A stretch of DNA of 64,000 bases from Propioniciclava sp. MC1595 (GTDB lineage Bacteria; Actinomycetota; Actinomycetes; Propionibacteriales; Propionibacteriaceae): NCBI RefSeq assembly GCF_017569205.1, contig NZ_CP071870.1, positions 1,984,001 to 2,048,000 of the forward strand, written 5' to 3'. Of the stretch, positions 14,278 through 44,606 are shown piece by piece. The notes beneath the pieces were generated by a model. The model ran no database searches, was not told the DNA's origin, and saw only the letters and a program-made list of their open reading frames with translations. The stretch's first letter is position 1, and each line of letters begins with the position of its first letter. Both the position numbers and the translations under genes were made by a program.

Positions 14278-15135
14278 TCAGAACCGGTCGGGCTCCTCAG
14301 CGTTGAACGGCAGCGCCTTGTGGCCGTCCGCGCGCACCACGAGCCGGTCGAACCCGCCGCCGGTCGCGCCGAGGACCTCGGTGGTGTGCGGCCCGAACAG
14401 CAGGCCGACCTGCGTGGCCGGGTCGGCCGATCGCTTGCGGTCCTGCCGCAGCCAGCGGCGTCCGTGGGCCGTCAGGGCGAGCGTGGTGCCCTGGCGCACG
14501 ATGAGTTCCACCCGCTCGCCGGCGTCGTTGGTGCCGTAGTCGAGGCGGACGGCGTGCACCAGGCCCGGGTAGCCGAACTCGATCCGCTCACGCTCCACCG
14601 GGCGGCGCCCGGCGGTGTCGCGGACGACGGCCTCGGCCCGGTCGGCCTCGGCGTCCACGGCGGCCCAGTGCTGGGCACCCGGGTCGACCGAGGCGAAGCC
14701 AGCCGGGACGACCCGCTCGCGCAGCGCCGCCACCAGCCGGGGCGCCTCGTCGTCGGAGAAGCCCGGGAAGAGGTCCTGCTCGATGCCGGATCCGCCGCGC
14801 ACGGCGACGACCGGGGTCTCCCGGCCGTCGACGAGGCCGGTGCCGATCGCCAGGACGTCGGCCCAGGCGCGTCGGCGTCCGAGGGGGGTGGCGAAACCGG
14901 CGGGGTCGAGGCGCACCATGCCCTGGGTCAGGCCCTCCAGGGCGAGCACGATCGCCATCACCAGGAACGGCGTGACGATGGCCACGAGCACGCCGGAGTC
15001 GACGTGCGGGGCCCGGACGAACCCCACCAGCGCCGCGACGAAGGCGGCACCGAACAGCGCCACGCCCAGCAGGCCCCAGAACCCGCGGCGGCCGGAGCGG
15101 CGCGAGACGACCCACGTGGGGTTCGCGGTCTCCAT
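14278..15135 (-). CDS. Membrane protein with two N-terminal TM segments, unknown function
   Basis: 285 aa. Two hydrophobic stretches, about residues 20-42 (FWGLLGVALFGAAFVAALVGF) and 50-70 (VLVAIVTPFLVMAIVLALEG), are followed by a soluble cytoplasmic-type domain of about 200 residues with no motif I recognise. The spacing resembles bacterial PH-like domain membrane proteins, but that is only a guess. Its ATG overlaps the trpS stop (ATGA), so it is translationally coupled to trpS and probably shares its attenuator-controlled transcript. Confidence 0.6.
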   Translation of the reverse strand: METANPTWVVSRRSGRRGFWGLLGVALFGAAFVAALVGFVRAPHVDSGVLVAIVTPFLVMAIVLALEGLTQGMVRLDPAGFATPLGRRRAWADVLAIGTGLVDGRETPVVAVRGGSGIEQDLFPGFSDDEAPRLVAALRERVVPAGFASVDPGAQHWAAVDAEADRAEAVVRDTAGRRPVERERIEFGYPGLVHAVRLDYGTNDAGERVELIVRQGTTLALTAHGRRWLRQDRKRSADPATQVGLLFGPHTTEVLGATGGGFDRLVVRADGHKALPFNAEEPDRF

Positions 15136-16265
15136 CAGTAGACCATGCCCATCGCCTGCCGGACCTCGGCGAGGGTGGCGTCGGCCACCGCGTTGGCCCG
15201 CTCGTTGCCCGCGCGCAGGACCTGCTCGATGTGGCCCCGCTCGGCCTCGAGCTCGGCCCGGCGGGCGCGGATGGGCGCGAACTTCTCGTTGAGAACCTCG
15301 GTGAGGTACTTCTTCAGGCCGCCCCCGCCGCCGTCGCCGATCTCCTCGGCGACGGCAGCCGGGTCACGGTCGGCGCACAGCCCCGCGAGCGTGAGCAGGT
15401 TGGCCACGGTCGGGCGGTTGACCGGGTCGAAGGTGATGTGGCGGTCGGAGTCGGTGACCGCGCGCTTGATGATCTTCGCCGTCTCGTCGGCGGTCATGCG
15501 CAGCTCGATCGTGTTGCCCTTGGACTTGCTCATCTTGGTGCCGTCCATGCCCAGGATCAGCGACCCCGAGCTGAGCAGCGCGTCGGCCTGCGGGAAGATC
15601 GGGCGGGCCGGGTCGACGCGGCCGTAGCGCTCGTCGAACCGACGCGCCACCACGCGGGTCTGCTCCAGGTGCGGCAGCTGGTCCTTGCCGACGGGCACGA
15701 GGTTGGCCTTGCAGAACAGGATGTCCGCGGCCTGGTGCACCGGGTAGGTGAGCAGCAGGCCGGACATGGGGCGTCCGGCGGTGGCCTCGTGCTCGGCCTT
15801 GACCGTGGGGTTGCGGTACAGCTCGGAGTCGGTGACCAGCGACAGGAACGGCAGCATCAGCTGGTTCAGCGCCGGGATCGCCGAGTGGGCGAAGATGGTC
15901 GTGCGCTCCGGGTCGATGCCGACCGCCAGGTAGTCGGTGACCAGCGAGCGCACCCGGTCACCGATCTCCCCCACGCCGTCGCGGTCGGCGATCACCTGGT
16001 AGTCCGCCACCAGCACGAAGGTCTCGACGCCGTCATCCTGCAGGCGCACCCGGTTGGCCAGCGACCCGAAGTAGTGCCCGATGTGCAGGTGGCCGGTCGG
16101 CCGGTCGCCGGTGAGCATGCGGAAGCCCGAGGGGTCCTTGGCGATCTGGTCCTCGATCGCCCGGCTGCGCTCCTCCGAGCGGCGCAGGGACGCCTCGGAG
16201 GTCGAGGCGGCCAGGGCGTCCGCGGCCTCGGTGTCGACCTCGGTCGCGGTGACCTGCTCGGTCAT
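15135..16265 (-). CDS. trpS: Tryptophanyl-tRNA synthetase
   Basis: 376 aa class Ic aminoacyl-tRNA synthetase that charges tRNA-Trp. The HIGH motif is in TGHLHIGHYFGSL (residues about 57-69) and the KMSKS motif in MDGTKMSKSKGN (about 243-254). The Trp-binding segment includes YPVHQAADIL. The N-terminal 40 residues are an acidic/Ala-rich extension, so the protein is longer than the usual 335-340 aa. The start ATG at 16265 has AGGAG six bases upstream. A leader with a tandem-Trp peptide and a terminator hairpin lies directly upstream (separate entries), so expression is probably raised when charged tRNA-Trp is scarce. The gene downstream overlaps its stop codon. Confidence 0.95.
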   Translation of the reverse strand: MTEQVTATEVDTEAADALAASTSEASLRRSEERSRAIEDQIAKDPSGFRMLTGDRPTGHLHIGHYFGSLANRVRLQDDGVETFVLVADYQVIADRDGVGEIGDRVRSLVTDYLAVGIDPERTTIFAHSAIPALNQLMLPFLSLVTDSELYRNPTVKAEHEATAGRPMSGLLLTYPVHQAADILFCKANLVPVGKDQLPHLEQTRVVARRFDERYGRVDPARPIFPQADALLSSGSLILGMDGTKMSKSKGNTIELRMTADETAKIIKRAVTDSDRHITFDPVNRPTVANLLTLAGLCADRDPAAVAEEIGDGGGGGLKKYLTEVLNEKFAPIRARRAELEAERGHIEQVLRAGNERANAVADATLAEVRQAMGMVY

Positions 16266-16300
16266 GGGTTACTCCTGTTCGTTCGGTCCCACGGGCACGC

Positions 16301-16326
16301 AAAACGGCCGCCCGCTGGACGGCCGT
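16301..16326 (-). terminator. Attenuator terminator hairpin in the trpS leader
   Basis: On the minus strand ACGGCCG, a 9-nt loop and CGGCCGT are followed by TTT, a rho-independent terminator shape, 36 nt before the trpS start codon. The 5' arm can alternatively pair with the upstream ACGGCC segment, giving an antiterminator. Confidence 0.7.
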
Positions 16327-16345
16327 GGTGTGCGTGGGGGGACGG

Positions 16346-16361
16346 GGCCGTCGTTACGGCC
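16346..16361 (-). promoter_or_regulatory. Pause (1:2) hairpin of the trpS attenuator
   Basis: GGCCGT-aacg-ACGGCC is a perfect 6-bp stem. Its first arm overlaps the last two codons and stop of the tandem-Trp leader peptide, so a ribosome stalled on the Trp codons would block this stem and free the second arm to pair with segment 3. Confidence 0.65.
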
Positions 16362-16383
16362 GCCACCATCCCCCGCGTGTCAT
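16354..16383 (-). CDS. trpS leader peptide MTRGGWWRP
   Basis: A 10-codon open frame (ATG ACA CGC GGG GGA TGG TGG CGG CCG TAA) with two adjacent Trp codons lies in the trpS leader. TAGGAT, a -10 box, sits six bases before its ATG, so the peptide is probably translated from a leaderless 5' end; the same bases also offer AGGA as a ribosome binding site. Tandem Trp codons followed by mutually exclusive hairpins are the hallmark of ribosome-mediated attenuation, as in classical trp operons. Here the controlled gene is trpS. It is too short for ordinary gene finders. The evidence is entirely in the sequence; regulation is inferred. Confidence 0.75.
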   Translation of the reverse strand: MTRGGWWRP

Positions 16384-16389
16384 GGGGCC

Positions 16390-16395
16390 ATCCTA
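16390..16395 (-). promoter_or_regulatory. -10 box of the trpS transcript
   Basis: TAGGAT on the minus strand fits TANNNT. Transcription would start about seven bases downstream, at or next to the ATG of the leader peptide. Confidence 0.55.
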
Positions 16396-16440
16396 ACGTG
16401 CCAGACGGTGACCCTGCGCACCGCGTCCGACCGGGCGTCC

Positions 16441-17289
16441 TCAGGGGCGGCCACCGCGGGCCTGGATCCTGCGCACGATCTCGGCGTGGGCGTCCGGGTG
16501 GGTCAGGCCGGCCCCCAGCGGGTTGTTGCGCTTGCCCAGGCCGTGGTGGTCGCTCGACCCGGTGACGATGACGCCGAGCCGCTCGGCGACCGCCCGAAGG
16601 TCGGCCCGGGTGTCGTCGTCGTGGTCGGGGTGGTCGACCTCGATGCCGTCCAGGCCGTGCTCGAGGACCAGTTCGGCGAGGAACGCCTCGGGCAGGTCGC
16701 CCCGGCGGCCCCGGCCCCACGGGTGGGCCAGCACGGCCACGCCCTTCGCGCGGCGCACCAGCTCGATCGCGCGGGTCAGCTCCGTGGAGTACCGGTCGAC
16801 GTAGGCGGGGCTGCCCTCGTGCAGCCACAGCCTGAACGCCTCGTCCCGGTGCGCCACGTAGCCCTTCTCGACCATCGCGTCGGCGATGTGGGGGCGGCCC
16901 AGCGAGGTCCCGGTCGCGTGCCTGAGCACGTCCTCGACCGTCAGCGGCATGCCCAGCTCGGTCAGCCGCGCGGCCATCGTCGGCACGCGGTCGGACCGGC
17001 CGACGCGCACGCGGGCCAACTCGTCGAGGAGGTCCTCGTCGTGCGGGTCGCAGCCGTAGGCCAGCAGGTGCACCGAGGCCCCGCGCCGTTCGGTCGAGAA
17101 CTCCATGCCGGCCAGGACCTGCACGCCGGCCTCCTCGCCCGCCAGCCTCGCCTCGCGCAGGCCGTCGAACGTGTCGTGGTCGGTCAGGCCGATCACGTCC
17201 AGACCCTCCTGCGCCGCCTTGCGGACGAGCTGGGTCGGGGTGTCCGTCCCGTCCGAGACGAGGGTGTGCGTGTGCAGGTCGATCCGCAT
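16441..17289 (-). CDS. PHP-domain phosphoesterase (YciV/TrpH-like)
   Basis: 282 aa. PHP metal-binding motifs are visible: RIDLHTHTLVSDGT (motif I), GLTDHDTFDG (motif II), a Glu in LAGMEFST, LLAYGCD, VLAHPWGRG (motif III) and GSSDHHG (motif IV). The family includes the 3',5'-nucleotide bisphosphate phosphatase/RNase AM (YciV, RnmA) and similar 5'-3' exonucleases. The likely substrate is therefore a nucleotide bisphosphate or short RNA, by family. The start ATG at 17289 places the first metal ligand at residue 5, as in relatives. It lies upstream of trpS on the same strand but the trpS promoter separates them. Confidence 0.85.
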   Translation of the reverse strand: MRIDLHTHTLVSDGTDTPTQLVRKAAQEGLDVIGLTDHDTFDGLREARLAGEEAGVQVLAGMEFSTERRGASVHLLAYGCDPHDEDLLDELARVRVGRSDRVPTMAARLTELGMPLTVEDVLRHATGTSLGRPHIADAMVEKGYVAHRDEAFRLWLHEGSPAYVDRYSTELTRAIELVRRAKGVAVLAHPWGRGRRGDLPEAFLAELVLEHGLDGIEVDHPDHDDDTRADLRAVAERLGVIVTGSSDHHGLGKRNNPLGAGLTHPDAHAEIVRRIQARGGRP

Positions 17290-36064: not shown

Positions 36065-36191
36065 GACGAGCGGCTCCTCGACGTCGATGGTGCGAAACGC
36101 ACGATGCGACGAGGGTAATGGGCCGGGACAAGGGCGTTTGGGTGAGCGAAGGGCCCGGCTGCACGAGCAGCCGGGCCCTTCACAACACAGG

Positions 36192-36560
<369 letters not shown>

Positions 36561-44532: not shown

Positions 44533-44606
44533 TGGGCGCAGAGGGACTCGAACCCCCGACCCCCTCCTTGTAAGGGAGGTGCTCTAACCAACTGAGCCAT
44601 GCGCCC
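44533..44606 (-). tRNA. tRNA-Val (anticodon UAC)
   Basis: 74 nt. The acceptor stem GGGCGCA pairs with TGCGCCC followed by discriminator A. The D-arm region is GGCTCAGTTGGTTAGAGC, the anticodon stem CCTCC/GGAGG encloses the loop CTTACAA giving anticodon UAC, and the T arm GGGGGTTCGAGTCCC has the standard GTTCGA. CCA is not fully encoded. Confidence 0.95.

Follow-up and report, generated by a model that had tools for sequence, protein, structure and literature searches.

The gene for tryptophanyl-tRNA synthetase (TrpRS), trpS, of Propioniciclava sp. MC1595 appears to be preceded by a ribosome-mediated transcription attenuator that would sense charged tRNA-Trp and set the expression of the only trpS found in this genome. 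We assign this reading a probability of about 0.88. A first-pass annotation of the window, the 64,000-nucleotide stretch of DNA analyzed here, had proposed a classical attenuator before trpS, and this proposal was supported by the recurrence of the leader in relatives, covariation in the predicted terminator stem, and competing computed folds.

The leader and its competing folds

The features of the locus are listed below, with pairing segments numbered 1 to 4 in the order of transcription.

16390–16395, minus strand: −10-like box TAGGAT, a sequence recurring as TANNNT in the leaders of the family
16354–16383, minus strand: leader ORF MTRGGWWRP* (ATG ACA CGC GGG GGA TGG TGG CGG CCG TAA)
16368–16363, minus strand: tandem UGG codons of the leader ORF
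16356–16361, minus strand: segment 1, GGCCGU, overlapping the 3′ end of the leader ORF
16346–16351, minus strand: segment 2, ACGGCC, partner of segment 1 (predicted pause hairpin) or segment 3 (predicted antiterminator)
16317–16326, minus strand: segment 3, ACGGCCGUCC
16304–16313, minus strand: segment 4, GGGCGGCCGU; the 3:4 pairing is the putative terminator stem, 10 bp with a 3-nt loop
16301–16304, minus strand: UUUU after the 3:4 stem, its first U being the last paired base
16272–16276, minus strand: Shine-Dalgarno-like AGGAG of trpS, outside the 3:4 stem
15135–16265, minus strand: trpS, class A in the grouping given below, above the cut-off of the equivalog model TIGR00233
14278–15135, minus strand: ORF of 285 aa overlapping the trpS stop codon, with an N-terminal part that is hydrophobic by eye

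On the minus strand, between a PHP-domain gene and trpS, segments 1 and 2 are joined by the loop AACG, and segment 2 is followed by a C-rich linker leading to segment 3. TAGGAT lies six bases ahead of the leader ORF (16395–16390), and the 1:2 hairpin GGCCGT-aacg-ACGGCC overlaps the end of that ORF (16361–16346), both as first annotated; the ability of segment 3 to pair with either segment 2 or segment 4 was borne out by the sequence and by the computed folds. Other details needed correction. The leader ORF and its tandem Trp codons are present, but the ten codons ascribed to it comprise nine residues and the stop codon. The 3:4 stem and the following T-run are also present, but the stem has 10 bp rather than 7, and the run is UUUU with a paired first U rather than TTT. 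The distance from the T-run (ending at 16301) to the trpS ATG (16265) is 35 nt and not 36 nt.

Judging from the position of the −10-like box, the RNA probably begins on or close to the leader ATG, so that the leader ORF would be leaderless. A simple consensus scan of the minus strand (15100–16700) called no sigma-70 promoter and no intrinsic terminator at the leader, probably because it contains no −35-like hexamer and no run of five Ts. As an intrinsic terminator, 3:4 has a strong, covarying GC stem, yet only UUUU and no scan call. The position of the trpS Shine-Dalgarno sequence outside this stem points to control at the level of transcription and not of translation.

In the proposed mechanism, whose leaderless start, stalling, termination, and induction we infer, the transcript would begin on the leader ATG or adjacent to it, and a ribosome would load on the leaderless ORF. 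With plentiful Trp-tRNA-Trp, the ribosome would reach the UAA and cover segment 2, segments 3 and 4 would pair, and the polymerase would terminate before trpS. When Trp-tRNA-Trp is scarce, because tryptophan is lacking, TrpRS is in short supply, or an inhibitor blocks TrpRS, a ribosome stalled at UGG-UGG would cover segment 1, segments 2 and 3 would pair, and trpS would be transcribed with no terminator formed. If the leader were untranslated, 1:2 and 3:4 would form and transcription would stop. The circuit would amount to negative feedback, more TrpRS giving more charged tRNA and hence more termination.

The window leader folded at −55.9 kcal/mol (z −4.0), which was matched by none of 200 shuffles. 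The 3:4 hairpin alone (−19.0 kcal/mol) was likewise matched by 0/200, and the 2:3 pairing alone (−12.0 kcal/mol) by 6/200. Folds with a stalled or terminating ribosome were computed for 19 aligned leaders with an assumed ribosome footprint of 12 nt. With the ribosome at the first W codon, 2:3 paired in all 19 folds up to segment 3 (7–12 pairs), the free stretch folding at −10.5 to −18.9 kcal/mol; a ribosome placed at the stop codon gave 3:4 in all 19 (9–10 pairs; −15.5 to −19.6 kcal/mol). The leader stop codon lies 1 nt before segment 2 in 13 of the 19 leaders and within or beyond segment 2 in the other six. At equilibrium with a stalled ribosome, 3:4 still beat 2:3 in 15/19 leaders, so antitermination would have to depend on the order of synthesis, that is, on a kinetic switch. 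Kinetic switching is a feature of other attenuators. The real 2:3 duplexes were equalled by 152 of 5,700 shuffled linkers. Three leaders (L014, L016, and L049) have mismatches in the ungapped 2:3 register; their duplex energies were the best of the set, together with that of L107 (−18.0), and 0/300 shuffles were as good for each of the three. These folds suggest that the mutually exclusive pairings, 1:2 with 3:4 on the one hand and 2:3 on the other, are positioned for a stalled or terminating ribosome.

The 285-aa ORF behind trpS is perhaps co-transcribed with it. It had no Pfam or NCBIfam match and, among the loci checked, stands behind trpS only in the window's genus and not in all of its members. 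The genes upstream of trpS, named by similarity, are presumably a PHP-domain gene and a glutamate dehydrogenase gene. Several further candidates were rejected. No T-box or other Rfam element matched the locus at gathering scores, the only such matches in the window being a tmRNA (36191–36560, minus strand) and one tRNA (44533–44606, minus strand). For a Trp attenuator on the genome's own trp genes, WW ORFs in the stretch around hisI-trpE (L152) were found only inside coding regions, the sole location on the gene strand, or antisense to them, and L153 and L154 contained none. A search for viral relatives of this trpS yielded eight pattern matches, none of them a relative.

Recurrence and covariation in relatives

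The best named trpS loci were those of a Propionibacterium MAG (93%) and P. sinopodophylli (88%), a set from which very near records may be absent. Leaders of named relatives read MKQLGWWQA (Propionibacterium MAG), MEQRVWWRP (P. sinopodophylli), and MKQTGWWRS (P. flava). Among 23 family leaders with W codons, picked by eye, a TANNNT box stands 6–7 nt ahead of an ATG or GTG in every one; a box so near the start codon argues for a leaderless leader ORF. Some family members, L092, L094, L105, L106, L110, and L112, have just one W codon.

At least TTT follows the 3:4 stem in most of the 23 leaders; the T-runs are short, with UUUU in the window, UUUC in several relatives, and no U-run in L097. The same Trp sensor could instead act on another output, stalling governing Rho-dependent termination or the translation of trpS, an alternative that we consider unlikely. 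The weak U-tract, the absence of a terminator call at the window leader, and L097 agree with it, as do S. lividans trpL2, likewise described without a U-rich stretch in the available part of PMC8079986, and the Mycobacteriales trpS leaders, which have another layout with, by eye, a possible pairing partner near the trpS start. It is countered by the compact, covarying GC hairpin with its T-run and by the Shine-Dalgarno sequence lying outside it.

Nineteen of the 23 leaders were aligned; the divergent L094, L105, L106, and L112 were left out, which flatters the following conservation figures. The 3:4 helix was paired in 96.8% of cells, and four of its ten pairs were changed on both sides, the doubly changed cells coming from few lineages (three from L014, L016, and L049 together and the others from single rows). 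The covariation score of 1:2 plus 3:4 was reached by 0/500 shuffles, which ignore relatedness, and one of five covariation measures was reached by 48/500. The 2:3 helix was paired in 93.2% of cells with no pair changed on both sides. The first-pass annotation had suggested looking for conserved Trp codons and covarying arms in related genomes; the 3:4 stem covaries, and the W codons, the TANNNT box next to a start codon, and the 1:2, 2:3, and 3:4 pairings recur upstream of trpS in relatives.

A covariance model (CM) built from the 19 leaders gave a single strong match, at trpS, in the genome of the window (E 2.2e-19), the next best having an E of 0.37. Matches at E 0.01 or better occurred in 40 of 197 family genomes, and the other 157 had none. 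The match lay directly upstream of trpS in 31/197 (places compared by eye), which include all of the 26 best-matching genomes (E 1.3e-6 or better). Ten matches, all with E 2.8e-5 or weaker, were treated as chance; eight were away from the listed trpS place, and two, classed as chance only provisionally, were in genomes without a listed trpS place (G141 and G161). One further match was the antisense of the G167 leader. The window's genus had matches in 10 of 13 genomes, G103, G117, and G133 having none, and Trp leaders missed by the CM exist (L185, L260, and L262).

Loss of the Trp codons and pairing arms in close relatives had been named beforehand as evidence against an attenuator; they are conserved there, although L086 (95%) and L088 (92%), among the closest relatives, have no leader before trpS. 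In L088, a segment-4-like GGCGGCCGTTT and a T-run stand almost directly after a −10-like TAGGCT, as if the rest of the leader had been deleted. The two assemblies are fragmented (480 and 260 contigs; 72% and 91% complete, respectively), and the missing leaders are thus possibly assembly faults. Within the family, leader-positive and leader-negative rows were intermixed; a tree of 129 class-A proteins showed at least 18 changes (FastTree, with many weak forks; seven rows whose leaders have a single W or depart from the spacing were scored manually as positive).

TrpRS classes and the distribution of Trp leaders

We labeled the TrpRS types found in this study as classes A, B, and C. The nearest solved structures to class A, the class of the window's enzyme, are 1yi8 and 2a4m, of which 2a4m bears the name tryptophanyl-tRNA synthetase II and is a Deinococcus enzyme; the nearest to class B is 7el8. 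Class B was matched in 246 of 296 class genomes at E 1e-70 and, as the common type, was labeled housekeeping. Class C was the second enzyme in 10 of 12 genomes searched and is 44–50% identical to the class-B query. At the His position of the motif VADLHAL, Gln stands in each of the 129 class-A proteins, and His was found in 68/68 class-B and 10/10 class-C proteins. From the motif, this His would correspond to His43 of B. stearothermophilus, which is implicated in indolmycin sensitivity according to the accessible portion of PMC4899734.

In the window's genome (3.43 Mb, single contig), the class-A query found only one trpS at a cut-off of E 0.001 and class-B queries found none. The same class-A query recovers class-B genes of relatives at about 1e-45, and it could miss a trpS of far greater divergence.

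A strict leader test counted ORFs of 6–25 codons with two W codons no more than 1 residue apart, a TANNNT box 4–9 nt before the start, and a position within 350 nt of trpS; upstreams below 200 nt, proteins below 250 aa, and repeated TrpRS were excluded, which removed the short stretches L244–L263. It was positive for 57/129 class-A, 1/68 class-B, and 8/10 class-C upstreams, sets that are not random samples. Trp leaders are found before class-A and class-C genes across many families and hardly ever before class-B genes. Overall, 66 of 207 real upstreams were positive versus none of the 207 opposite strands and none of 4,140 shuffles (0/2,580 for class-A upstream shuffles). These counts bear on whether the locus could be accounted for by hairpins of chance or other origin in GC-rich intergenic DNA, together with an accidental WW ORF. 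Palindromic GGCC segments arise easily in GC-rich DNA, and two very close relatives lack the leader, as this explanation allows; nevertheless, it was rejected by the fold-energy shuffles, the strict test, and the duplex shuffles, is contradicted by the recurrence in relatives, the single strong genome-wide CM match, and the covariation, and is very improbable.

In the class-wide sample of 296 genomes, class A was matched at E 1e-90 in 42, of which 35 also matched the class-B query at E 1e-70, a threshold at which class C may count as class B (perhaps in G463). The remaining seven did not (five were listed as without class B, and G334 and G404 were assigned by absence from the match list); a weaker second trpS is possible in them, the window's own genome excepted. 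Leaders were sought here with an ORF test within 450 nt that is looser than the strict test and was passed by 2 of 42 opposite strands. A leader preceded all 35 class-A genes accompanied by a class-B-like trpS, 31 of them with a TANNNT box, versus two of the seven unaccompanied genes (Fisher p 2.5e-5, relatedness ignored); the 35 span ten family codes, many being from f19. These counts indicate that the leader goes with accompanied class-A genes. The two unaccompanied genes with a leader are those of the window's genome and of G013, and within this sample a leader on an unaccompanied class-A gene occurred only in the window's family. In genus g49, a WW leader stands before a second trpS of class A (L189, L196, L198, and L200) or class C (L275–L279 and L281), and its large genomes carry MTTRTCTQLWWAA or close variants before the class-C gene. 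We took g49 as Streptomyces from the resemblance of MTTRTCTQLWWAA to the S. lividans leader MMTRTCTQLWRAA (PMC8079986) and not by name.

Leaders of another layout were observed before Mycobacteriales-type class-A trpS (e.g., VIDIRQAWWWLLQQPV; L062, L067, L068, L073, L076, L077, and L080). By eye, they contain a long hairpin and, close to where trpS begins, one more pairing segment, and they perhaps exert translational control.

One species of the window's genus, G068 (40 contigs, 100% complete, 1% contamination), carries the leader before a different enzyme. Its leader, MHERLRWWRP*, has the same hairpins (CM E 1.4e-16), and directly behind it lies a class-B, housekeeping-type trpS that is 33% identical to the window's class-A enzyme (L129/L155). 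With the class-A query, this genome gave just one trpS-like match, for which no place was listed (E 2.6e-45), and its class-B gene matches at that strength. The PHP gene and glutamate dehydrogenase lie upstream, as in the window. In G103 of the same genus, a class-B gene 86–87% identical to that of G068 occupies the same place with no leader (L156). Family class-B loci were obtained for 30 of 31 matching genomes, and the other 28 had neither the PHP nor the dehydrogenase neighbor within about 1.5 kb. The simplest reading is that, in G068, class B replaced class A in place beneath a retained leader.

It could also be supposed that the hairpin is a fixed terminator keeping trpS low and that the leader peptide is an unresponsive relic of an older auxiliary gene that is now the sole TrpRS. 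The lack of a leader in five of the seven unaccompanied class-A genomes and the scatter of leader-negative rows within the family tree would agree with such a history. In all 19 aligned leaders, that of the window included, the alternative pairings and the W codons (one or more) are nevertheless intact, and the G068 leader stands before another enzyme class, so that this explanation seems highly unlikely to us beside a responsive attenuator.

In actinobacteria, most class-A and class-C trpS that bear a leader are accompanied by another trpS. The window's family usually yields no class B, and the attenuator would thereby have become the throttle of the only TrpRS. We moderately favor a reading in which the leader is a regulatory slot independent of the enzyme, has become the throttle of the only TrpRS in the window's family, and had class B swapped in beneath it in one species. 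If so, an essential synthetase would be under pure negative feedback, its product acting on one leader ribosome. Trp attenuation would extend from an auxiliary gene to an apparently sole, essential TrpRS, with regulator and regulated step closing into a loop. The apparent exchange of enzymes at the locus and the leaderless close relatives offer ready comparisons for the worth of the leader, and, if the 35/35 association holds in larger samples, the leader would be a usable marker of auxiliary TrpRS genes.

Relation to known systems

Ribosome-mediated attenuation reportedly controls the auxiliary, antibiotic-resistant trpRS1 of S. coelicolor (Vecchione and Sello 2010). The Streptomyces trpS attenuators share with the window a Trp leader peptide, competing hairpins, and trpS as the target; trpRS1 is auxiliary by the title of that report, whereas the window's trpS is the only one found and belongs to class A. 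The first-pass annotation had regarded Trp attenuators as usual before trp biosynthesis genes, and its view of trpS control as unusual is tempered by the 2005 prediction for Streptomyces: the available text of that study describes classical attenuators predicted before trpS in some Streptomyces, including S. avermitilis trpS2, and trp leaders in Corynebacterium and Streptomyces, and has Propionibacterium acnes among the genomes used with no trpS attenuator mentioned for it there (Seliverstov 2005, PMC1262725). TrpRS1 is listed as indolmycin-resistant, and producers carry a second, insensitive copy, according to the part of a review at hand (PMC9437257). In S. lividans, trpL2 before trpS is described in the accessible text as leaderless with one Trp codon (PMC8079986); a leaderless leader ORF directly upstream of trpS is thus stated for that species, whereas the window's start is deduced from the −10 box.

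The attenuators of trp operons have tandem UGG codons and competing hairpins, as in the window, but control trp genes, whereas the target of the window's leader would be trpS. In E. coli trpL, the stop codon lies between segments 1 and 2, as in the window leader. T-box riboswitches sense uncharged tRNA upstream of synthetase genes; the window, with no Rfam match to a T-box at gathering scores, would instead sense through a translated leader.

The matches listed for the open-access literature searched included no description of an attenuator before trpS in Propionibacteriaceae. PMC4833913 cites two works that may contain one (Lopatovskaya 2010; Korolev 2015, the latter on tryptophan attenuators in Actinobacteria), and we therefore make no claim of priority. 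Trp attenuation of trpS is known as a kind from Streptomyces. As far as the open-access literature was searched, three aspects of the present case are new: the placement of the attenuator before an apparently sole TrpRS gene in Propionibacteriaceae, its association with accompanied genes across the class, and the apparent enzyme swap under a kept leader.
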